Source: a virus
Strand: one strand, 5' to 3'
DNA length: 24,703 bases
Virus record (IMG/VR): IMGVR_UViG_3300011113_000224
Coordinates: 1-24,703 of that record
Shown: positions 16,181 through 24,703 of the stretch, in pieces
Layout of the letters: each line of letters opens with the position of its first letter
Numbering within the stretch: the first letter of the stretch is position 1
Program-made: the position numbers and the translations under genes
Notes under the pieces: generated by a model
Told to the model about the DNA's origin: nothing
The model's input: the letters and a program-made list of their open reading frames with translations, nothing else
The model's database searches: none

Positions 16181-16221
16181 AATTTGTGGGGAGGGTGAGA
16201 AGTAGTAAGGAGGTATTACAG

Positions 16222-16317
16222 ATGTGGTGGGAGTGGGTGCAAAACAGTGTTCATGTCATGTCGTCATGCCGCCGTCAATTTAGGGGGGGTGGGGGTACGG
16301 TGGGGTCAGCAGGATAG
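16222..16317 (+). CDS. Possible 31-aa leader peptide / mini-protein
   Basis: ATG 16222 is preceded by AAGGAGGT with seven bases of spacing, the strongest Shine-Dalgarno match in the window. The peptide begins MWWEWVQNSVHVMSSC, with three Trp in the first five residues, and ends in a Gly-rich tail (FRGGGGTVGSAG). The tail codons run through a G-rich stretch that may be non-coding in character. It has no overlap with a following gene; the next coding start is 127 bases downstream. It could be a leader peptide sensing translation, a real micro-protein, or a chance ORF behind a chance AGGAGG. I recognise no family. Confidence 0.38.
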   Translation: MWWEWVQNSVHVMSSCRRQFRGGGGTVGSAG

Positions 16318-16320
16318 CCC

Positions 16321-16344
16321 ATAACCCCTACCGCTAGGGCTTAT
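16321..16344. promoter_or_regulatory. Operator-like inverted repeat ATAACCCCTA-N4-TAGGGCTTAT
   Basis: Two 10-bp arms, nine of ten matching, surround a CCGC spacer immediately upstream of the candidate early promoter. The right arm with its preceding C (CTAGGGCTTAT, 16334-16344) recurs exactly at 23232-23242, where it forms half of a perfect palindrome before another gene. This suggests a shared regulator binding both places. Confidence 0.5.
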
Positions 16345-16349
16345 AAAGT

Positions 16350-16371
16350 GCCTCTGTGCTAAAATAGAGGC
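16350..16371 (+). promoter_or_regulatory. Candidate early promoter with extended -10, inside an inverted repeat
   Basis: TGCTAAAAT (16357-16365) is an extended -10 (TGN plus TAAAAT, five of six). It is framed by GCCTCT (16350-16355) and AGAGGC (16366-16371), a 6-bp inverted repeat. No good -35 box is visible, which extended -10 promoters can tolerate. Transcription would begin near 16372, about 70 bases before the first early gene. Confidence 0.45.
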
Positions 16372-16408
16372 ATCGGTTGGGGATTGGCCCCAGTCGATAT
16401 CGGCAACC

Positions 16409-16425
16409 GGGGAGAAACCTCCCCC
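16409..16425 (+). repeat. Intergenic hairpin element, copy 1
   Basis: GGGGAG-AAAC-CTCCCC hairpin, followed after 11 bases by the ribosome binding site of the 130-aa gene. It is also enclosed upstream by CGGTTG (16374-16379) pairing with CAACCG (16404-16409), so the leader could fold into a larger branched structure. It has no U run, so it is not a terminator. Confidence 0.7.
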
Positions 16426-16443
16426 ACACATAGGAGAAGCAAC

Positions 16444-16836
16444 ATGAAAGACGTTACCCTCACATACGCAGCCTTTGCTCACGATCTTGGTGCACACGAT
16501 CAGCTTACGTTATCGGTGTCACTTGTGTGGCATCGTGAGTACCTCAAGGCAGACGCGGCAACGCGCACGGCACGGCGCGATGAGTTCATCCTGCACTTCA
16601 TGATCGGGGCCAAAGTGCCCGAGGCCAAGGCTAAGAAGATCATGGCGCAATCACGCACAGACCGGACAACCGAAGCGCAGCAGCTTTACGACCGGGCCCG
16701 CGCCAAGTTCACCTACCACATCGTGCGACCCGTCAAGAAGCCCAGCTCGGGCAAGGCTGACATCGTGGCTCAGGCGCTGGCTTTGATCGCACAGATGGAC
16801 GCAGCACAGAAGCGCAAGGTTCGCGCTGCGCTGTAA
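16444..16836 (+). CDS. Early phage protein of unknown function (helical, 130 aa)
   Basis: The start is ATG 16444, preceded by AGGAGAAGCAAC; the open frame upstream runs through the hairpin leader and is not used. The protein begins MKDVTLTYAAFAHDLGAHDQ and is mainly helical and basic, with ATRTARRDEFILHFMIGAKV, KKIMAQSRTDRTTEAQQLYD and a C-terminal helix (VAQALALIAQMDAAQKRKVR). I do not recognise a named family, although the RTxEAQQLYDRARAKFxYHIVRP region seems familiar from other uncultured phage contigs. It is the first substantial gene of the rightward module, followed directly by a GGGGAG hairpin. A DNA-binding or regulatory role is possible but not shown. Confidence 0.75.
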   Translation: MKDVTLTYAAFAHDLGAHDQLTLSVSLVWHREYLKADAATRTARRDEFILHFMIGAKVPEAKAKKIMAQSRTDRTTEAQQLYDRARAKFTYHIVRPVKKPSSGKADIVAQALALIAQMDAAQKRKVRAAL

Positions 16837-16840
16837 TCTC

Positions 16841-16899
16841 GGGGAGACTTTCTCCCCCACATTTTTCGCAGCGGCTTTGTCCGAGAGGGCGGGCCGCTG
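16841..16899 (+). repeat. Intergenic double hairpin, copy 2
   Basis: First hairpin GGGGAGA-CTT-TCTCCCC (16841-16857), four bases after the stop codon. Second hairpin CAGCGGC (16869-16875) pairs with GCCGCTG (16893-16899) around a 17-base loop. The ribosome binding site of the next gene follows after CAAACCCA. A short T run (16862-16866) separates the two, so weak termination cannot be fully excluded. Confidence 0.65.
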
Positions 16900-16931
16900 T
16901 TCTGTTTCTTGTCAAACCCAAGGAGAAAAAA

Positions 16932-17102
16932 GTGCTTCAACTCAACCTCACGCAAGGACGCGCTGCGCTCTACCGCAAAGAGTCCTACAACCACCGAACC
17001 ACGCCGCGCATTGAGTGGATCGTGAAAGTCGGCGACCAGATCGTCCGCGAATGCAGCACCCGCAGGGAAGCCCTGACGTGGCTCAACATCTACAGCAAAT
17101 AA
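16932..17102 (+). CDS. 56-aa early protein, GTG start
   Basis: The ORF starts at GTG 16932 with AAGGAG seven bases upstream and ends at TAA 17100. The protein begins MLQLNLTQGRAALYRKESYN and has TPRIEWIVKVGDQIVRECST followed by a short C-terminal helix (RREALTWLNIYSK). The pattern of a beta-hairpin (WIVKVGDQIV) and helix suggests a small folded domain. It has basic charge and one Cys. The stop is followed immediately by the ribosome binding site of the next gene. I recognise no family. Confidence 0.65.
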   Translation: MLQLNLTQGRAALYRKESYNHRTTPRIEWIVKVGDQIVRECSTRREALTWLNIYSK

Positions 17103-17112
17103 GGAGATCATC

Positions 17113-17325
17113 ATGCGTCAAGAAGTCATCAGCACCGGCACGTTCAACATTCATGGCCGCGAGTACCACACACAAACCATCTACCCAATGGGACGACAGC
17201 GCCCTCAATACCAAATGTGGTACGTCTGGCAGAAGCACCAGACCGGGACTGTGTTCGCCTCTGAGCGCGGCTTTGAACGCTGGCTCGCCAGCATGATGCA
17301 GCCCACGCAAGCGAAGCTGTTCTGA
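17113..17325 (+). CDS. 70-aa early protein of unknown function
   Basis: ATG 17113 follows AAGGAGATCATC. The protein begins MRQEVISTGTFNIHGREYHT, with aromatic-rich beta-like segments (YQMWYVWQKHQTGTVFASER) and a C-terminal helix (FERWLASMMQPTQAKLF). It is basic, without Cys or membrane segment. It resembles the preceding 56-aa protein in layout (strands, then a helix with a W-L core), so the two might be diverged relatives; that is speculative. It ends eight bases before hairpin copy 3 and closes the first early cluster. Confidence 0.7.
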   Translation: MRQEVISTGTFNIHGREYHTQTIYPMGRQRPQYQMWYVWQKHQTGTVFASERGFERWLASMMQPTQAKLF

Positions 17326-17333
17326 CTCAGGAT

Positions 17334-17351
17334 GGGGGAGAAACCTCCCCC
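17334..17351 (+). repeat. Intergenic hairpin element, copy 3
   Basis: GGGGGAG-AAAC-CTCCCCC, a 7-bp perfect stem with a four-base loop, begins eight bases after the stop of the 70-aa gene. It is followed by GTTTCACTAATG rather than a U run. Unlike the other copies there is no gene close downstream; a 400-bp gene-poor region follows. Confidence 0.7.
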
Positions 17352-17398
17352 GTTTCACTAATGAACCAAAAAAATGGCATCAGACAATAGTCCAACAG

Positions 17399-17436
17399 AC
17401 CTGCGGGCTAGCAATCGCCCGCTAACCCGCATGAAT
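17399..17436 (+). repeat. Left arm of a 38-bp inverted repeat
   Basis: ACCTGCGGGCTAGC (17399-17412), 11 variable bases, AACCCGCATGAAT (17424-17436). Both conserved blocks recur in reverse complement, in the same spacing, at 17629-17666. The left arm can also fold alone, GCGGGC with GCCCGC. Confidence 0.75.
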
Positions 17437-17628
17437 GCTAGCGTTCCGGCCCCACTCAATAACTACTAATCTATCTAATAGATATACTTATATATAGGAG
17501 CTTGTGTTTTTATTAGGGGGTGAGCTAACCCCTTTATTTAACTAACCCCTCGTTTAAAAATAAGCCGGCGCTATATAGTATTTCCATCAGCACAACTATT
17601 GATTGTTGACCCATACCGCAAGCCCTGT

Positions 17629-17666
17629 ATTCATGCGGGTTCCAGCCCAATCGCTAGCCCGCAGGT
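17629..17666 (-). repeat. Right arm of the 38-bp inverted repeat
   Basis: ATTCATGCGGGTT (17629-17641), 11 variable bases, GCTAGCCCGCAGGT (17653-17666). The outer 14 and inner 13 bases match the left arm perfectly in reverse complement; the middle 11 bases match at only about four positions. Confidence 0.75.
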
Positions 17667-17750
17667 ATGCCGGACTTTTTGGACGCAACACGCTATCCTG
17701 CGAATTATTGCCGTGTTACACTGCACGTTTTCAACCACTCGGAGCACAAA

Positions 17751-18647
17751 ATGCAGCCAACATACCCTGAAAAACGCACGTTCAACTGGGAGGAGAAAGA
17801 CCGACTACCCTTCCACTGGGCCATCGACATGTGCAGCCACGCCCTCAAACAGCGTGGGACTGAGCCACGCAAGGCTACATACATTGCCGTGTTACAGGCA
17901 TTGGAGGCCATCGACCACATGCATGAGCCGCAGTACATATCCACGAAGAAGCTCAAGTCCATGCTCGTTGCTGCTGCGCAGGAGCATGGTTGGTACATGA
18001 AAGACCCGGCCACATTGCCTAGGCCCAAGGCACCGGAGGGTGTACCGCCTGACATGAAGTGGTGCCGCAGGTGTCAGGAGATCAAGGCCATCGATGGGTT
18101 CATGACGACGCCCACGCCAGCCAAGGCTCGCACGTATGGGTGGAAGGAGGACACGACGATCAAGGTCGTGGGGCATCTGTGCAAGGAGTGTCGCAAGGCC
18201 AAGCAGCAGCAGGGTGCACGCAAGACACGCAGGCGCAGTGGTAAGGACAAGCTGTCTGATCTGGCACGCAGGGTCAACCCCGCCGAAGCAAAGCGTCACG
18301 ATACCTACGCTAAATTGATGGGTGAGTTGAAAGTACATGCCGCTCGTATCCGGGCGGCATACAGTAACGTGAAGCGTACTTTTGCCACACCCGAAGGGGT
18401 ATACCACGAGTATCAGTTCAAGACGGACGAGCTGCGCCAGTTTTACGAGTCGAAGAAAGTCCTCGTCTCTGCAGCGATGGACAGGCTCGACGCCAAGCTG
18501 GGCGAGACCGCGCCTCTTCCCGACACTTGGGGCATGTTGCTGACCCGCGACGAGCAGACGGAGCTTGCCAACCTGCACGCTCAAGCGATCCTGTCCTCCA
18601 CATCCAACCGCAAGCCTGTGCTGTGGACATTGGAGTTGAAAGAGTAA
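17751..18647 (+). CDS. Zinc-finger protein, early module (298 aa)
   Basis: I chose ATG 17751 (GGAG seven bases upstream) over the earlier in-frame ATG at 17667, which abuts the inverted repeat and lacks a good site. Residues 1-85 are helical (PFHWAIDMCSHALKQRG; TKKLKSMLVAAAQEHGWYM). Residues 105-147 form a four-Cys zinc module, WCRRCQEIKAIDGF then LCKECRKAKQQ. It resembles the first zinc module of the endonuclease VII-like protein of this phage (CTRC, then CRAC), but no DHDH or other catalytic motif follows. A basic linker (GARKTRRRSGKDK) and a helical C-terminal half complete it. DNA binding is plausible; the function is unknown. Confidence 0.75.
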   Translation: MQPTYPEKRTFNWEEKDRLPFHWAIDMCSHALKQRGTEPRKATYIAVLQALEAIDHMHEPQYISTKKLKSMLVAAAQEHGWYMKDPATLPRPKAPEGVPPDMKWCRRCQEIKAIDGFMTTPTPAKARTYGWKEDTTIKVVGHLCKECRKAKQQQGARKTRRRSGKDKLSDLARRVNPAEAKRHDTYAKLMGELKVHAARIRAAYSNVKRTFATPEGVYHEYQFKTDELRQFYESKKVLVSAAMDRLDAKLGETAPLPDTWGMLLTRDEQTELANLHAQAILSSTSNRKPVLWTLELKE

Positions 18648-18648
18648 C

Positions 18649-18700
18649 GGGGGAGAAACCTCCCCCACCGACGCCGGGCGGTACCCGGCTATTCAAGCAA
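18649..18700 (+). repeat. Intergenic double hairpin, copy 4
   Basis: First hairpin GGGGGAG-AAAC-CTCCCCC (18649-18666), directly after the stop codon. Second hairpin GCCGGG-CGGTA-CCCGGC (18673-18689). Then TATTCAAGCAA and the ribosome binding site. The second hairpin and the TATTCAAGCAA tail recur in copy 6 with compensated stem changes. Confidence 0.78.
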
Positions 18701-18711
18701 GGAGAAAGCAA

Positions 18712-18915
18712 ATGATGGAAATCGAGTACACGATAGGCGCATGGGCGCTGCCTTACCTCGTCAACGGTGACGCGTCTGGGCTGGACGACGCAGAGCACGC
18801 GCTGCTAGACAGGTGGCTTGACGACGCTGTGTCTGCATTCAAAGACGACGATGGCCAGCGCTGGGAGTTTTCCCACGAGGTGATCGACACCGACTCGCGC
18901 CTCGACGCAGGTTGA
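18712..18915 (+). CDS. Small acidic protein (ALPYLVNGDASGL family), possibly truncated
   Basis: This 67-aa protein starts at ATG 18712 after AAGGAGAAAGCAA. It contains WALPYLVNGDASGLDDAEHA and LLDRWLDDAVSAF. The xLPYLxNGDxSGLxxxE pattern is one I know from short uncharacterised proteins of phages and plasmids, possibly Pfam DUF6926, unverified. Known relatives continue past the WEFSHEV-like region. Here the frame stops after DTDSRLDAG, but the +1 frame reads on for another 17 codons from the stop (EGSFVLAEVEKKPRVKR) to a TAA at 18965, so a frameshift or sequencing indel may have shortened it. It is acidic, with no Cys. The function is unknown. Confidence 0.72.
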   Translation: MMEIEYTIGAWALPYLVNGDASGLDDAEHALLDRWLDDAVSAFKDDDGQRWEFSHEVIDTDSRLDAG

Positions 18916-18988
18916 GGGCAGCTTCGTGCTGGCCGAGGTTGAGAAAAAACCAAGGGTCAAACGGTAAGAACATAGAAGGAGAAAGCAA

Positions 18989-19192
18989 ATGAAGTTTGTA
19001 TATCACGACACGGGCGACTGGGTTCGCTCTGACTGCAACACCGCAGCTACCCGCGACCGACCGACGGTTGAGGAGTACAACACGCTCGACGAGATTGGCA
19101 ACGCTTGGCTACGCCAGACGTTTGAATGGATGCTGAGAGAAGGCATGGCCGTAACGAACACCGGCTCAAGTGTGTTCCAAATCCGTAACTAA
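18989..19192 (+). CDS. 67-aa early protein of unknown function
   Basis: ATG 18989 follows the same leader as the previous gene (AAGGAGAAAGCAA). The protein begins MKFVYHDTGDWVRSDCNTAA, has a charged middle (TVEEYNTLDEIGNAWLRQTF) and ends GSSVFQIRN. The predicted order is a short strand pair, a helix (NTLDEIGNAWLRQTFEWMLR) and a final strand. It has one Cys and no membrane segment. I recognise no family. It is 16 bases before the 172-aa gene, and the two probably share a transcript. Confidence 0.7.
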   Translation: MKFVYHDTGDWVRSDCNTAATRDRPTVEEYNTLDEIGNAWLRQTFEWMLREGMAVTNTGSSVFQIRN

Positions 19193-19208
19193 ACCAAGGA
19201 GTAAGCAA

Positions 19209-19727
19209 ATGAAAGACGCATTCAAAACCAAAGCACGCGACGCAGCCAAGAGCTACCACATCGAGAACGCCATACGCCAGATCAGGCCGACGCTGCTCAA
19301 GCAGCCGGTGGTGGCTCGCACGTTTAACCTGCTGCCCCCAGCACTGCGTGCCAAAGCTAACCTGATGCTGGCATACAGCGGCAACTCGGTGATCATCTAC
19401 TGCAACATCTTTGATCTACCATCGTTCAAGGATGCCAAGCTGTTGAGCATACTGGAGAAGTTCGCTGACTGGCAGGCCAACACGACTGACTACACGTACA
19501 ACATGCCCAACCGTGATTTCACATTCACACGCAAGTGCACATGGGATCACGACGAGCGTAGCATCGCGTACAAGAAGCTGGCCAAGGAGGATGTAGTGCC
19601 GACCACGTTTGAGTTGTGCATCAAGCTCAGCGCGTACGTCAAGCAAGACAGCGCCACATGCAGGATCATCACCAAGACCCACGAGGAGGTGATCACCAAA
19701 GAAGAACGCATCATCGTGTGCGACTAA
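19209..19727 (+). CDS. 172-aa early protein of unknown function
   Basis: The start is ATG 19209 after AAGGAGTAAGCAA; the longer frame reaching 19170 overlaps the previous gene and lacks a site. The basic helical N-terminus (MKDAFKTKARDAAKSYHIEN) leads to a mixed alpha/beta body with ANLMLAYSGNSVIIYCNIFD, FADWQANTTDYTYNM and YKKLAKEDVVPTTFELCIKL. The C-terminal half alternates strands (CRIITKTHEEVITKEERIIV). I do not recognise a named family. Hairpin copy 5 follows six bases after the stop. Confidence 0.72.
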   Translation: MKDAFKTKARDAAKSYHIENAIRQIRPTLLKQPVVARTFNLLPPALRAKANLMLAYSGNSVIIYCNIFDLPSFKDAKLLSILEKFADWQANTTDYTYNMPNRDFTFTRKCTWDHDERSIAYKKLAKEDVVPTTFELCIKLSAYVKQDSATCRIITKTHEEVITKEERIIVCD

Positions 19728-19733
19728 GTATCC

Positions 19734-19777
19734 GGGGGAGACTTCTCCCCCAAGCGTGGGGACTGCGCTTCAGTCCC
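19734..19777 (+). repeat. Intergenic double hairpin, copy 5
   Basis: First hairpin GGGGGAG-ACTT-CTCCCCC (19734-19751). Second hairpin GGGACTG-CGCTT-CAGTCCC (19759-19777), then a TTCAAG-containing tail and AAGGAAG before the DUF932-type gene. The second stem differs in sequence from those of copies 4 and 6 yet keeps perfect pairing and a five-base CGNTN loop. Confidence 0.78.
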
Positions 19778-19811
19778 AGTGTGTTTGTTCAAGTAATCAA
19801 GGAAGTAAATC

Positions 19812-20786
19812 ATGGCTCATCAAATCGCATTCAAGAACGGTATCGCTCAGTACGCATCCACCCAGCGTGAGTGGCATGGCCTCGGGCAGCTCATGCCCAT
19901 CGGGGCAACTGTCGAGGAGTGGCAGAAGCAAGCAGGCATGGACTACGCTATCAAGCGTGGTCGCATCCGCTTCGCTACTCAGCCCCTCTCCCCCACCGAC
20001 TACGTCGGCAACCTCCAGACTGTGGACGACAAGGTCGTGCTGTTCCGCAACGACACCTTCGCCCCGCTGGGTGTGGTCTCTGACTCTTACAAGGTGGTGC
20101 AACCCGCCGAGGTGCTTGAGTTCTTCCGTGAGTGGGCCGACAAGGGTGGCGTGACCATCGAGTCGGCTGGCGTACTCTTCGGTGGCAAGCGGTACTTCGC
20201 AACCGCTAAGCTTGCCGACGCTGTGTCTGTCGACGGTGGGCGTGACAAGGTCGTGCCCTACGCGCTGCTCTCTACATCTGCTGACGGTTCCCTTGCCACG
20301 GAATGCCGCTGGACTACGGTGCGCACGGTGTGTAACAACACGCTGAGCATAGCGCTCAAGGGCAAGTCCGCCTTCAAGGTATCGCACCGCTCAGTCTTTA
20401 ACCCAGACGACGCACGCGACGCAGTCGAGGCAGCCAACGAGGAGTTCCAATCGTTCATGACGATGGCCCGTGACTTGGCAAGGGTGAAGATGGAGCAGGA
20501 CATTGCGGAAGCAATGACGGTGAAACTGCTGGCGAAAGCCAGCGAAGAAGTGGCCCGCGAGTCTGCTGCGTTCGGCAAGATCATGGCGCTATTCAACGGC
20601 GAGGCCAAGGGCAGCAACTTCGAGACGGCACACGAGACCGCATGGGGCTGGCTCAACGCTGTGACGGAGCACTTTGATCATCATGTCCGGGCACGCACCG
20701 ACGAGAACCGTCAAGCTGCAGCCTTGTGGGGTAACGGGGCAGCAATGAAACATAAAGCTGTGGAGTTGGTGACGGCACTCATTTGA
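19812..20786 (+). CDS. DUF932 / TIGR03299 phage-plasmid protein
   Basis: This 324-aa protein begins MAHQIAFKNGIAQYASTQRE and continues WHGLGQ. It has FRNDTFAPLGVVSDSYKVVQ, EVLEFFREWADKGGVTIESA, GVLFGGKRYFATAKL, VPYALLSTSADGSLATECRW and TVRTVCNNTLSIAL in the order expected for the DUF932 family of phage and plasmid proteins (TIGR03299 type), whose members are usually 300-400 aa. The C-terminal third is helical. The biochemical role is not established; family members are often in early or replication regions and have been linked loosely to DNA metabolism. AAGGAAG ten bases upstream sets the start. It ends in an 8-bp overlap with the convergent HNH gene. Confidence 0.88.
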   Translation: MAHQIAFKNGIAQYASTQREWHGLGQLMPIGATVEEWQKQAGMDYAIKRGRIRFATQPLSPTDYVGNLQTVDDKVVLFRNDTFAPLGVVSDSYKVVQPAEVLEFFREWADKGGVTIESAGVLFGGKRYFATAKLADAVSVDGGRDKVVPYALLSTSADGSLATECRWTTVRTVCNNTLSIALKGKSAFKVSHRSVFNPDDARDAVEAANEEFQSFMTMARDLARVKMEQDIAEAMTVKLLAKASEEVARESAAFGKIMALFNGEAKGSNFETAHETAWGWLNAVTEHFDHHVRARTDENRQAAALWGNGAAMKHKAVELVTALI

Positions 20787-21306
20787 GCGACCGCAGGTAC
20801 GACGCAATCTTTTCCAACTCGGCAAGGGTTGCGTCGTTCTTTATCCGGTTCGCCCGTCGAGAGATGACATGCACATTGCCCAGCACATACCCCTTACGGT
20901 TGTTAATACGATCAAGCTCAGGCGAGTTGTCGTTAGCAGTTCCGTCACCAACAACCAAGGGTATGCCAAGGATGGGGCAGCGCTTTGGGATTGTGATGTC
21001 TTCAGCCGTGAGATTGAACGCCAAACCTTTAGCTTTTGCCCTAGCTCTGATCCGCGCCAGCATGTGGACTTCAGGACGAGCACGCCGTGCTTCCCGCATA
21101 TATGCAGCCATCTGTTCGTTGTATGCAGCGCGCCCCTCGGCGGTACTGAGTACACGGTTTTGGTTTTGCCGACGAAGCTCGTTGATCTTCTTGCGTCTGC
21201 GCTTGTACGACTCAGCAGAAACCCAGTGCTCAAGCAACCCTTTGGCACCCTTGCGGTATCCGCGAAAGATCATGCCGTCTGCACGCACATCACCAACTTT
21301 ATACAT
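20779..21306 (-). CDS. HNH homing-type endonuclease inserted on the opposite strand
   Basis: This 175-aa protein starts at ATG 21306 (GGAG six to seven bases upstream; a longer TTG-started frame is not used). The basic N-terminal half (YKRRRKKINELRRQNQNRVL) is probably DNA-binding. The C-terminal half has ARAKAKGLAFNLTAEDITIP, CPILGIPL, SPELDRINNRKGYVLGNVHV and SRRANRIKNDAT, which match HNH endonucleases of phage self-splicing or free-standing type. It is the only minus-strand gene in the early module and overlaps the end of the DUF932-type gene by eight bases, as expected for a mobile endonuclease gene. Its target site is unknown. Confidence 0.85.
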   Translation of the reverse strand: MYKVGDVRADGMIFRGYRKGAKGLLEHWVSAESYKRRRKKINELRRQNQNRVLSTAEGRAAYNEQMAAYMREARRARPEVHMLARIRARAKAKGLAFNLTAEDITIPKRCPILGIPLVVGDGTANDNSPELDRINNRKGYVLGNVHVISRRANRIKNDATLAELEKIASYLRSLK

Positions 21307-21357
21307 GAGGAACTCCACAATTAACAAAGTACAATTTTAACCCATCCCCAGAAGATC

Positions 21358-21411
21358 GGGGAGGTTTCTCCCCCAACCGTTGCCGGTGCGGTTCACCGGC
21401 TATTCAAGCAA
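21358..21411 (+). repeat. Intergenic double hairpin, copy 6 (first hairpin inverted)
   Basis: First hairpin GGGGAG-GTTT-CTCCCC (21358-21373), the reverse complement of the AAAC-loop copies. Second hairpin GCCGGTG-CGGTT-CACCGGC (21382-21400), then TATTCAAGCAA (21401-21411), identical to copy 4. It is separated from the DUF932-type gene by the HNH gene. Confidence 0.75.
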
Positions 21412-21428
21412 ACCCAAGGAAGTAAATC

Positions 21429-21860
21429 ATGATCGAAGTAGTTAACACCCCCGCCACCATCGAAGCAACCACACAGGAGAACCAAATGAACGAAGCAACC
21501 AACACCTTCACCCTTACCACCCCCCAACCCTCTGACCTGCTGCAAAGCCTGATGAAGCTGCTCGACGAGCACATCGAGAAGAAGGTAGCCGAGGCGCTGA
21601 CCAAGCACGTTGAGGCCCTGCGCGATATCGCCACAGAGATCGCAGAGGAGGTGGTGCAGAGCGCAATGGAAGACCACACCACCAGCTACGACCACGACGA
21701 CTACGACAACGTGTCCAACAACCTCGACGACAGGATCAACGATGCCATCTATGACTATGACTTCGACGACAAGATCGAAGAGGCGATCCGCAGCTACGAC
21801 CTTGAGGACAAGATCAAGGACACCATCCGCGACATGTCGTTCACCGTCAGCGTGGACTAA
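21429..21860 (+). CDS. Acidic helical protein with C-terminal repeats and two possible starts
   Basis: The 143-aa form starts at ATG 21429 (AAGGAAG site); a 124-aa form could start at ATG 21486, which has its own AGGAG seven bases upstream. Residues about 35-80 form a long helix (LLQSLMKLLDEHIEKKVAEA, then IATEIAEEVVQSAM). After an acidic stretch (YDHDDYDNV) come three tandem repeats: LDDRINDAIYDYDF, DDKIEEAIRSYDL and EDKIKDTIRDMSF. It is very acidic. Such acidic, repeat-bearing early proteins are sometimes DNA mimics or inhibitors of host proteins, but nothing proves this here. I recognise no family. Confidence 0.72.
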   Translation: MIEVVNTPATIEATTQENQMNEATNTFTLTTPQPSDLLQSLMKLLDEHIEKKVAEALTKHVEALRDIATEIAEEVVQSAMEDHTTSYDHDDYDNVSNNLDDRINDAIYDYDFDDKIEEAIRSYDLEDKIKDTIRDMSFTVSVD

Positions 21861-21874
21861 TTAGTTGTGTAACC

Positions 21875-21890
21875 GGGGGCTTCGGCCCCC
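21875..21890 (+). repeat. UUCG-capped intergenic hairpin (relative of the GGGGGAG elements)
   Basis: GGGGGC-TTCG-GCCCCC, a very stable stem with the C(UUCG)G loop known from T4 intercistronic regions. It lies 14 bases after the stop of the acidic protein and 18 bases before the next ATG, with ATCTTT after the stem, so weak termination is possible but the next ribosome binding site follows at once. Confidence 0.7.
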
Positions 21891-21908
21891 ATCTTTAGGA
21901 GAAGCAAG

Positions 21909-22079
21909 ATGATTTATACAGTTGAGTTGAAGAGGGTCTCATACGAGAACATGCGTATTGAGGCAAACAGTCCAGAGGAAGCAGAGCAGTTGGCTTGGAA
22001 AGAACTGGAGTCCGACGGTTCGTACGGGATGAAGTACGCCGATTGGGAATGCTGCGGTATCTACGAAGACGAGGAGTAA
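21909..22079 (+). CDS. 56-aa acidic protein
   Basis: ATG 21909 has AGGAG six bases upstream. The protein begins MIYTVELKRVSYENMRIEAN and continues SPEEAEQLAWKELESDG, ending in ECCGIYEDEE. A first strand, then an [IV]EAxSPEEAExLA helix start, is the layout of small DpnD/PcfM-like domains, but the match is loose. It has two adjacent Cys near the end. Its last codons supply the ribosome binding site of the next gene (GAGGAG). Confidence 0.68.
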   Translation: MIYTVELKRVSYENMRIEANSPEEAEQLAWKELESDGSYGMKYADWECCGIYEDEE

Positions 22080-23222: not shown

Positions 23223-23250
23223 GCATAAGCCCTAGGGCTTATGCTAATCT
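23223..23250 (+). promoter_or_regulatory. Promoter with a perfect 22-bp palindromic operator
   Basis: GCATAAGCCC-TA-GGGCTTATGC is a perfect palindrome (23223-23244). Its right end merges into TGCTAATCT (23242-23250), an extended -10-like element; TTGCAT at 23221-23226, 18 bases before TAATCT, is a possible -35. CTAGGGCTTAT (23232-23242) is shared exactly with the operator-like site at 16334-16344. The gene it would control starts at 23282. Confidence 0.5.
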
Positions 23251-24000: not shown

Positions 24001-24197
24001 GCTGGAAGCTTATCGGATTCATATCCGATGCGGGCAACTTTGTGCAGCACATCGTGCCGGTCAATGACACATACGAACACGAGCTGATGCCAACCTGCTG
24101 GTGTAAACCAACGATTGACGATGCGGATTTCACTGCCATCCATAACAGCGCAGACCAGCGTGAGAAGTTTGAACGTGGAGAGAGGAAACCATCATGA
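23997..24197 (+). CDS. 66-aa protein with CWC motif
   Basis: ATG 23997 overlaps the preceding stop (ATGA), with GGAGGAAGCA upstream. The protein begins MSWKLIGFISDAGNFVQHIV, followed by PVNDTYEHELMPTCWCKPTI and a C-terminus with HNSADQREKFERGE. The PVNDxxEHE...CWCxP...HxSxDxRE pattern is one I recognise from widespread short phage and bacterial proteins of unknown function; the Cys, His and Asp residues could bind a metal. It is coupled to both neighbours by ATGA overlaps. Confidence 0.72.
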   Translation: MSWKLIGFISDAGNFVQHIVPVNDTYEHELMPTCWCKPTIDDADFTAIHNSADQREKFERGERKPS

Positions 24198-24421
24198 CTG
24201 ACCGCGAACTGATGCAGCAGGCGCTCGAGGCGCTGGAGAGATACGGCGGCGTCGATCAGCGTGCCTGTGACGCTGAAGAAGCCCTGCGCGAGAGGCTGGC
24301 GCAGCCAGAGCGCATTCAACTAACCGCCCGTGACTTTGTGGTCACCGTTGGCGGTATAGAAGACGCTGTAGGCACACCGATGTACTGGGCCGAGTGGCCG
24401 AACAAGGAGAAAAACACATGA
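24194..24421 (+). CDS. 75-aa protein, first of a tandem related pair (MTDRELMQQALEALE)
   Basis: The start overlaps the previous stop (ATGA). Residues 1-15 read MTDRELMQQALEALE, and ALRERLAQPE follows about 15 residues later, forming an N-terminal helical hairpin. After it comes ERIQLTARDFVVTVGGIEDA and MYWAEWPNKE. The N-terminal module is repeated in the next gene, so the pair arose by duplication. Short proteins with this start are common, to my memory, in phages of Burkholderiales, often in several copies with different C-termini. The function is unknown. Confidence 0.75.
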   Translation: MTDRELMQQALEALERYGGVDQRACDAEEALRERLAQPERIQLTARDFVVTVGGIEDAVGTPMYWAEWPNKEKNT

Positions 24422-24703
24422 CCGACAGAGAACTGATGCAGCAGGCGCTGGAGGCGCTGGACCTTCACGCCAAGCAGTACCCGCACATGGTCAAAGGCTA
24501 CACCGCAGATGCTGCGTCAGCCCTGCGCGAGAGGCTGGCGCAGCCTGAAATACAACCATGCGCCGGACGCAACTGCGGCAGCACCAACCCCAACCTGCAC
24601 TCGGCTGAATGCTTCGAGGACTACGAGAAGGTGACTGGCATGAATCAGCGCAAGCCGCTGCCGCCTCAGTCACCGTGCGAGATGACGCAAGCCGAAGGCA
24701 AGA
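24418..24703 (+). CDS. Second protein of the tandem pair, cut by the right edge
   Basis: ATG 24418 overlaps the TGA of the preceding gene (ATGA). The first 14 residues (MTDRELMQQALEAL) and ALRERLAQPE repeat those of the preceding protein, with an insert (DLHAKQYPHMVKGYTADAA) between. After the repeat the C-terminus is different: CAGRNCGSTNPNLHSAECFE, a possible zinc site (Cys, Cys, His, Cys), then YEKVTGMNQRKPLPPQ. Ninety-five codons are visible and the frame is open at the window edge. A common N-terminal module joined to different C-termini suggests a modular family. Confidence 0.72.
   Translation, partial: MTDRELMQQALEALDLHAKQYPHMVKGYTADAASALRERLAQPEIQPCAGRNCGSTNPNLHSAECFEDYEKVTGMNQRKPLPPQSPCEMTQAEGK

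Follow-up and report, generated by a model that had tools for sequence, protein, structure and literature searches.

Intercistronic RNA hairpins and pseudoknots lie between early genes in an uncultured freshwater phage family

In malE-malF, puf and E. coli polycistronic mRNAs, stable and conserved hairpins without a U tract lie close to where the upstream gene ends; protected mRNA segments in E. coli operons end in such hairpins, and 5' structures lie below RNase E cuts (PMC5927463). In the gene 32 mRNA of phages T4, T2 and RB69, an H-type pseudoknot lies upstream of the ribosome binding site (RBS). The T4 pseudoknot nucleates cooperative gp32 binding (PMC3014915; PMC535899), and a 2010 review noted that the T4-type structure may be the only viral pseudoknot in translational autoregulation (PMC3014915). 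Early transcripts of phage HK022 carry the put antiterminator RNAs, each with two adjoining structures. In cluster K mycobacteriophages, short repeats called start-associated sequences (SAS) precede many non-structural genes in numerous copies; half of them are extended SAS with an inverted repeat, and the consensus differs between subclusters (PMC3203893).

We analyzed a window (the whole stretch of DNA, 24,703 nt, of IMG/VR virus record IMGVR_UViG_3300011113_000224) from a phage of an uncultured freshwater family, for which a terminase search returned at least 600 matching stretches. A repeated RNA structure lies between the early genes, and its shape is kept across family relatives while its letters change (Table 1). 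Consistent with the original prediction of six hairpins with a constant (G)GGGGAG/CTCCCC(C) stem, the pattern GGGGAG-N(3-5)-CTCCCC occurs exactly six times in the window (at 16409, 16841, 17335, 18650, 19735 and 21358) and never in 100 dinucleotide-preserving shuffles. A seventh G-C pair extends three copies of this hairpin, HP1 (starting at 17334, 18649 and 19734). Three loops are AAAC and the others ACTT, GTTT and ACTTT. These match the prediction, except that ACTTT had been given as CTT, the reading obtained when one counts an additional A-T pair. All six had been placed in intergenic gaps; this is true of copies 2–6, while copy 1 belongs to the leader that precedes the first rightward gene; a TAAAAT sequence (16360–16365), a putative early promoter box, lies ~43 nt upstream of this copy. 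A search for a sigma-70 or promoter consensus gave no match in the region.

Table 1. Structured RNA features in the window
Feature	Position	Strand	Structure	Context
Leader hairpin	16372–16398	+	11 pairs, predicted fold of 16361–16446	Between putative early promoter box and HP1 copy 1
HP1 copy 1	16409–16424	+	GGGGAG-AAAC-CTCCCC	5' leader of first rightward gene (start codon 16444)
HP1 copy 2	16841–16857	+	GGGGAG-ACTTT-CTCCCC	4 nt past stop codon of 130-aa gene
Second hairpin of copy 2	16869–16899	+	AGCGGC/GCCGCT type	Longer, unlike other second hairpins; partly T-rich stretch behind
HP1 copy 3	17334–17351	+	GGGGGAG-AAAC-CTCCCCC	8 nt past stop codon
HP1 copy 4	18649–18666	+	GGGGGAG-AAAC-CTCCCCC	1 nt past stop codon
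Pseudoknot of copy 4	18667–18689	+	ACCG (18667–18670) with loop CGGT; stem GCCGGG/CCCGGC	Start codon 18712, 22 nt on
HP1 copy 5	19734–19751	+	GGGGGAG-ACTT-CTCCCCC	6 nt past stop codon
Pseudoknot of copy 5	19752–19777	+	AAGCG (19752–19756) with loop CGCTT (19766–19770); stem GGGACTG/CAGTCCC	5' of DUF932 gene (19812)
HP1 copy 6	21358–21373	+	GGGGAG-GTTT-CTCCCC	Loop is reverse complement of AAAC
Pseudoknot of copy 6	21375–21400	+	AACCG (21375–21379) with loop CGGTT (21389–21393); stem GCCGGTG/CACCGGC	5' of 143-aa gene (21429)
Seventh intercistronic hairpin	21875–21890	+	GGGGGC-TTCG-GCCCCC	Same placement, other stem; just 5' of RBS of 56-aa gene (21909)

Copies 4, 5 and 6 are followed by the second hairpins that had been described, with the expected stems, CGNTN loops (CGGTA, CGCTT and CGGTT), TTCAAG and RBS. 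The first and second hairpins had been treated as one element, and reading the second as a plain hairpin captured its stem and missed a further helix: the 5'-flanking bases are complementary to the hairpin's own loop, and the hairpin forms just one of the two stems of a pseudoknot. Its layout is of the H type, with a loop-to-flank helix S1 of 3–5 pairs, a linker of 2–3 nt, a stem S2 of 6–8 pairs and 0–5 remaining loop bases that are often U-rich. The pseudoknot, found at a subset of junctions, follows HP1 by 0–4 nt – the two could stack end to end – and itself usually ends 17–30 nt 5' of the next start codon.

Relatives in the family supply the evidence for the loop-flank helix. It is present in 27 of 27 junctions with a long-looped leader hairpin, picked by protein homology (8/8, 6/6 and 13/13 by orthologous junction), and is built from about nine different base triplets. 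Among 134 unique hairpins, we counted 47 three-pair matches at one register versus 1–20 at the others and 0–4 in a mirror control; the signal is strand-specific and lies at that single register. Loop-flank pairing was found in 72 of 165 cases, compared with a permutation mean of 17.6 and maximum of 34. Helix S1 had a covariation score of 0.379 versus 0.113 when shuffled, in an alignment of 25 rows hand-trimmed from 42 hairpins by leaving out HP1-like or unrelated-looking ones; because trimming leans this alignment towards structure, our claims rest on the untrimmed tests. A MAFFT alignment of whole junctions lost register in the HP1 loops, and no counts were taken from it. The element is thus an H-type RNA pseudoknot: its loop pairs with the adjacent flank, and covariation backs the pairing.

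Pseudoknot sequences differ even among copies inside the window genome; shape is conserved and letters are not. The pseudoknot stands 5' of ~25 unrelated protein clusters, and therefore is not gene-specific. Upstream of the DUF932 gene it is retained where a promoter-like stretch takes HP1's place, and in one relative (L327) the order is swapped to stop–pseudoknot–hairpin. A pattern scan with AACCGNNGCC-N4-CGGTT-N4-GGC returned 43 stretches; the stem is truly paired in 13 of the new loci, nine of which are almost identical versions of a single junction that a U-rich stretch follows. The strict form of the pseudoknot was not found in stretches of ~49–50 kb from each of four named relatives, Phage DSL-LC04, Pelagibacter phage HTVC027P, MW202621 and Variovorax phage V45v66. 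In Pseudomonas phages PAK_P3 and KPP10, DNA similarity to one of the junctions spans the RBS only, and the pseudoknot is absent there.

HP1 without a pseudoknot is far commoner than the pseudoknot. A hairpin is present in 328 of 551 unique co-directional gaps versus 65 in shuffles (about five times commoner), and HP1 starts 0–8 nt past the stop codon in 132 of 195 unique stop-proximal hairpins. Its stems, mostly of 6–9 pairs around loops of 3 to 6 nt, vary among genomes with pairing kept (GGGGAG, GGGGAC, GAGGAC, AGAGAG). The same is seen at orthologous junctions, paired throughout both before the DUF932 gene (GGGGAG, GAGAGAG, GGGAC, GGGGGAC) and after it (GGGGAG, GGGGAC, GAGAGA). On the coding strand near stops, G-U pairs outnumber A-C mismatches (26 versus 8), so selection acts on the RNA. 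Selected RNA structure, as originally predicted, is thus strongly supported; the prediction would have failed without covariation or without copies in related genomes, and both were found.

No Rfam 15 covariance model matched at gathering score, and positions 16200–22000 gave no match up to E = 5; a plasmid search gave no match, and matches in a genome search were two distant MAG contigs only. In a scan of viral contigs for GGGGGAG-N4-CTCCCCC, the matches listed were mostly single copies between genes; these resemble ordinary terminators or chance occurrences, and we excluded them from the family set.

Compared with the known systems, HP1 resembles the protective hairpins of the malE-malF type in being stable, without a U tract and at the upstream cistron's end; it differs in occupying most early phage gaps, in lying near the stop codon, in its changing stems and in often adjoining a pseudoknot. 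The gene 32 pseudoknot occurs once per genome, at about −67 of one gene and with an A+U-rich run behind, whereas here up to three are recognized per contig, before unrelated genes, with a short S1 and usually ending 17–30 nt short of the start codon. In SAS, a 13-bp sequence, GGGATAGGAGCCC, is fixed and the repeats are imperfect 17-bp arms; HP1 does not share this motif, and the excerpted description mentions no pseudoknot (PMC3203893). Allowing up to three mismatches, GGGATAGGAGCCC has six matches where chance predicts 5, and none of the six lies where the genes concerned begin.

The analysis shows the structures, where they lie, how widely they occur and that selection acts on them as RNA; from these we infer each step of a function. 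The original prediction had listed mRNA processing, 5' stabilization and binding by a phage protein as alternative roles. The best-supported reading is that the hairpin and pseudoknot are a new structured RNA element that would act like known intercistronic protectors. Tentatively, and with somewhat less confidence than would make it probable, we propose that these elements are intercistronic barriers or insulators that protect and insulate segments of the early polycistronic mRNA. HP1, a short and very stable hairpin starting a few nt past the upstream stop codon, would act in tandem with the pseudoknot to halt 3'-to-5' exonucleases entering from a cut further downstream, giving the upstream cistron a protected 3' end, as in malE. 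The tandem would also hold the untranslated gap folded and supply a structured 5' boundary for the downstream RBS, as in papBA. A general barrier would allow the swapped order in L327. Some observations weigh against a barrier: a plain GC hairpin would suffice to block exonucleases, so that conservation of the costlier pseudoknot suggests a more specific role; the pseudoknot's closeness to the RBS fits translational control equally; a U run directly behind 12 of 71 pseudoknots suggests that some of them may help to terminate transcription; and the likeness of HP1 stems within one genome (0.32 versus 0.22 expected) could reflect sequence-specific recognition.

The main rival, which we consider unlikely, is a translational operator. 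A phage protein would bind the pseudoknot by shape and spread over or block the RBS, shutting down several early genes together in the way that T4 gp32, the phage's single-strand DNA-binding protein, represses its own gene through the mRNA, with HP1 only separating the site from the upstream cistron. The location just upstream of the RBS, as in T4 gene 32, agrees with this, as do the conservation of shape among differing copies in the same genome and the ability of the pseudoknot to sit near a transcript 5' end, below a promoter-like stretch. An operator is harder to reconcile with the ~25 unrelated protein clusters downstream, with the excess of HP1 alone and with L327, where the pseudoknot adjoins the stop codon instead.

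We regard as quite improbable an action on transcription, in which HP1 and the pseudoknot would be pause, attenuation or antitermination signals (a put-like RNA, or Rho protection of untranslated gaps). In three relatives (L223, L240 and L295), some orthologous leaders consist of the pseudoknot, directly followed by TTTTTCTTTT and then the RBS, an arrangement that amounts to an intrinsic terminator preceding the first early gene. The HK022 put RNA is likewise a two-structure element below early promoters (PMC9378689), though the put RNAs are ~70 nt, with two long stem-loops, two copies per genome and no stop-codon placement, while the elements here are short, follow stop codons and reach up to seven copies within a few kilobases. 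Most copies also lack a U run. The prediction that none follows is borne out for five copies, which therefore do not pair a GC-rich hairpin with a U run as intrinsic (Rho-independent) terminators do; copy 2 is followed by CACATTTTTC and was flagged as borderline by a loose terminator scan. The related view that these are not ordinary terminators is right for most copies – a T-rich tail follows 36 of the 293 stop-proximal hairpins of the family – and has to be relaxed for copy 2 and for some same-position members with a U run. A hairpin as near the stop codon as HP1 would be covered by a trailing ribosome, a poor arrangement for a terminator.

Very doubtful is a processing site at which RNase III or another endonuclease would divide the early transcript into monocistronic mRNAs, as happens in T7. 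The intercistronic position is repeated and the RNA is double-stranded, but stems of mostly 6–9 pairs in HP1 and 6–8 in S2 are short for RNase III. With 0–4 nt between the structures there is no single-stranded site between them, which argues against the simplest processing model, a cut between the hairpins; a cut may still fall just downstream of the pseudoknot, and this would merge with the barrier model. Least probable by our reckoning is that HP1 is a DNA palindrome, either a stoperator-like site bound by a phage protein dimer or a linker for recombination, with the RNA hairpin incidental: HP1 is an inverted repeat with its loop in both orientations (AAAC/GTTT, AAAT/ATTT), its stems resemble each other more within a genome than across genomes and an HNH gene is inserted directly beside copy 6, but its loop length varies, its stems covary with more G-U than A-C on the coding strand, its position is tied to the stop codon and it adjoins a pseudoknot that only RNA can form.

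The stop-codon hairpin stacked on a compact pseudoknot, several per genome, may plausibly be a new phage RNA class: a ribonuclease-resistant or protein-bound boundary for gene-by-gene transcript handling. If so, phages would have their first known family of intercistronic pseudoknots present in multiple copies, and pseudoknots before unrelated genes would widen the picture drawn in the 2010 review. The RNA covaries strongly, has no Rfam match and belongs to a freshwater phage family that is abundant and uncultured. Since both parts are short and reporter-ready, they make it testable how phages obtain differing protein amounts from one polycistronic mRNA, and could themselves be put to use as compact insulators.

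Other hairpins of the window recur in relatives. Leaders of the ATCGG...CCGAT type are found again, and terminator-like hairpins similar to the second hairpin of copy 2 come after HP1 in L011, L014 and L021. The seventh intercistronic hairpin is also present in L194, L196, L201 and L207. Its UUCG loop is shared with the intercistronic CUUCGG hairpins of T4, which lie between a stop codon and the next RBS, as here; HP1 differs from these T4 hairpins in its loops and in adjoining a pseudoknot.

In copies 4, 5 and 6, the bases immediately upstream of the second hairpin complement that hairpin's loop (ACCG/CGGT, AAGCG/CGCTT and AACCG/CGGTT), so a loop-to-flank helix (S1) and the hairpin stem (S2) together describe a pseudoknot. 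We assembled an unselected set of every hairpin with a 5-9 nt loop located 10-70 nt upstream of a predicted start codon, and inspected the flank afterwards. Three-pair complementarity between the flank and loop position 1 occurred 46 times at a 2-nt linker, against 1-20 times at other linker lengths. For linkers of 1-3 nt, 72 of the 165 hairpins were complementary (permutation mean 17.6, maximum 34, 5000 permutations); with the commonest loop class removed, 35 of 128 were, against 7.1 by permutation (maximum 17). A second register scan placed 36 fully Watson-Crick triples at a single distance, no other distance having more than 8. The mirror-image control, pairing the 3' flank with the loop 3' end, gave 0-4 matches, indicating that the S1 signal is strand-specific.

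We observed S1 in 8/8, 6/6 and 13/13 junctions picked solely by downstream-protein homology, counts that take in only junctions with a long-looped hairpin (homologues without one also exist). The first two families have the loop triplets CTG, GGC, GCG, CCC, GGT, CGG, CAG, CAC and CCG, with the complement in the flank each time. In an alignment of 25 gapless sequences S1 paired in 91% of cells, with a covariation score of 0.379 (0.113 shuffled, at most 0.127 slid), a supporting count only, since rows were hand-trimmed and some are close relatives. Genes were called mechanically with a simple codon-usage finder, which reproduced the window's plausible genes. Many contigs are related, so sequence counts are not event counts; independent-looking changes are visible directly in the lists of orthologous junctions.

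The commonest pseudoknot geometry (26/71 cases) has a 2-nt linker, seven S2 pairs and a 5-nt loop. S1 spans 3-5 pairs and leaves 0-5 nt of loop, often U-rich. The first hairpin (HP1) ends 0-4 nt before S1, a spacing at which HP1, S1 and S2 could stack. In co-directional gaps, a hairpin lies at most 16 nt upstream of 31 of 60 pseudoknots; the corresponding figure for the other long-looped hairpins is 10 of 51. Genes preceded by a pseudoknot fall into about 25 unrelated protein clusters. Before the DUF932 gene, which follows copy 5 in the window, one clade keeps the pseudoknot and has a promoter-like stretch at the HP1 position. Upstream of this gene in seven loci (L202-L206, L209, L213), palindromes such as TTCCCACATCCCTGGGAA adjoin TGATACAGT/TGTACAAT boxes, an arrangement resembling an operator overlapping a promoter.

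The six GGGGAG/CTCCCC-type hairpins of the original prediction were present exactly as described and absent from 100 shuffles. Scanning one hairpin sequence across viral contigs returned 71 stretches, and 32 contigs carry the GGGGAG form in at least two copies. Relative to predicted genes, HP1 typically starts 0-8 nt past the upstream stop codon (132/195 unique cases). Of 551 unique co-directional gaps measuring 25 nt or more, 328 contain a perfect hairpin of at least 6 pairs, against 65 in shuffled gaps. A T-rich tail follows only 36 of 293 HP1-type hairpins near stops.

Depending on the phage, the HP1 stem before the DUF932 gene reads GGGGAG, GAGAGAG, GGGAC or GGGGGAC, paired every time; at the junction that follows this gene it is GGGGAG, GGGGAC or GAGAGA. 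In near-stop hairpins with one irregular pair, that pair reads G-T in 26 cases and A-C in 8 on the coding strand (35 and 20 in hairpins elsewhere), an asymmetry expected of coding-strand RNA and not of a DNA palindrome.

HP1 loops occur in either orientation (AAAC/GTTT, AAAT/ATTT, GAAT/ATTC; window 16409, 18650 and 21358, L019 8437, L044 4048). At an apparent single orthologous junction the loop is AAAC in the window and L044 and GTTT in L019, as if at times inverted inside the palindrome. In L196, the junction homologous to the HNH-bearing one (gcgaccgcaggtacgac...agatcgggga) is uninterrupted, so the HNH gene looks like a mobile-endonuclease insertion directly adjoining the element.

Features in the window and one related locus
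Source	Position	Strand	Feature
Window	20779-21327	minus	HNH/endonuclease VII-like gene between DUF932 gene and HP1 copy 6
Window	21875		Seventh hairpin, GGGGGC-TTCG-GCCCCC; other sequence, same placement as HP1
Window	23223-23244		Perfect hairpin GCATAAGCC-CTAG-GGCTTATGC, 6 nt past GP88-family gene stop; same in L200
Window	24193-24237 / 24417-24461		45-nt repeat, 91% identical, at starts of two neighbouring tandemly related small genes
Window	24269 / 24508		Second repeat of those genes
L327	about 2722	minus	Reversed order: stop codon, pseudoknot, GGGGGAAC-type hairpin, ribosome-binding site

We infer that the element is most likely an intercistronic barrier, as the hairpin lies near where the upstream coding region ends, the pseudoknot borders the next ribosome-binding site on its 5' side, and shape counts more than letters. 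Precedent for both sides comes from Escherichia coli operons (PMC5927463), in which some protected upstream segments terminate in hairpins lacking a U tract (malE type) and some downstream segments owe their protection to structures below RNase E cuts (papBA type). The strongest rival is a translational operator of the T4 gene 32 kind (PMC3014915, PMC535899), given that the pseudoknot keeps a fairly constant position ahead of the ribosome-binding site.

No Rfam family matches the element. Closest in layout are the start-associated sequences of cluster K mycobacteriophages (PMC3203893), but the window shows no enrichment of their 13-bp motif, and the part of the published account considered describes no pseudoknot. 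The put RNA (PMC9378689) differs in size, number and place.

The window is a single 24.7-kb virus record with structural genes (terminase, portal and capsid families) on the minus strand at left and small early-type genes running rightward from 16.4 kb. It is related to uncultured contigs, most of them apparently from freshwater. Among named phages, Phage DSL-LC04, from a lake (terminase 54% identical), and Pelagibacter phage HTVC027P (51%) are nearest. The strict-form pseudoknot is absent from the examined stretches of named relatives, which on present evidence confines it to the uncultured clade. In five relatives (L223, L238, L240, L291, L295), the leader of the first early gene runs from a pseudoknot-forming hairpin directly into a U run and then the ribosome-binding site. 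This pseudoknot joined to a U run makes a transcriptional role likely there; it looks like a terminator whose pseudoknot helix covaries, and may be an attenuator.
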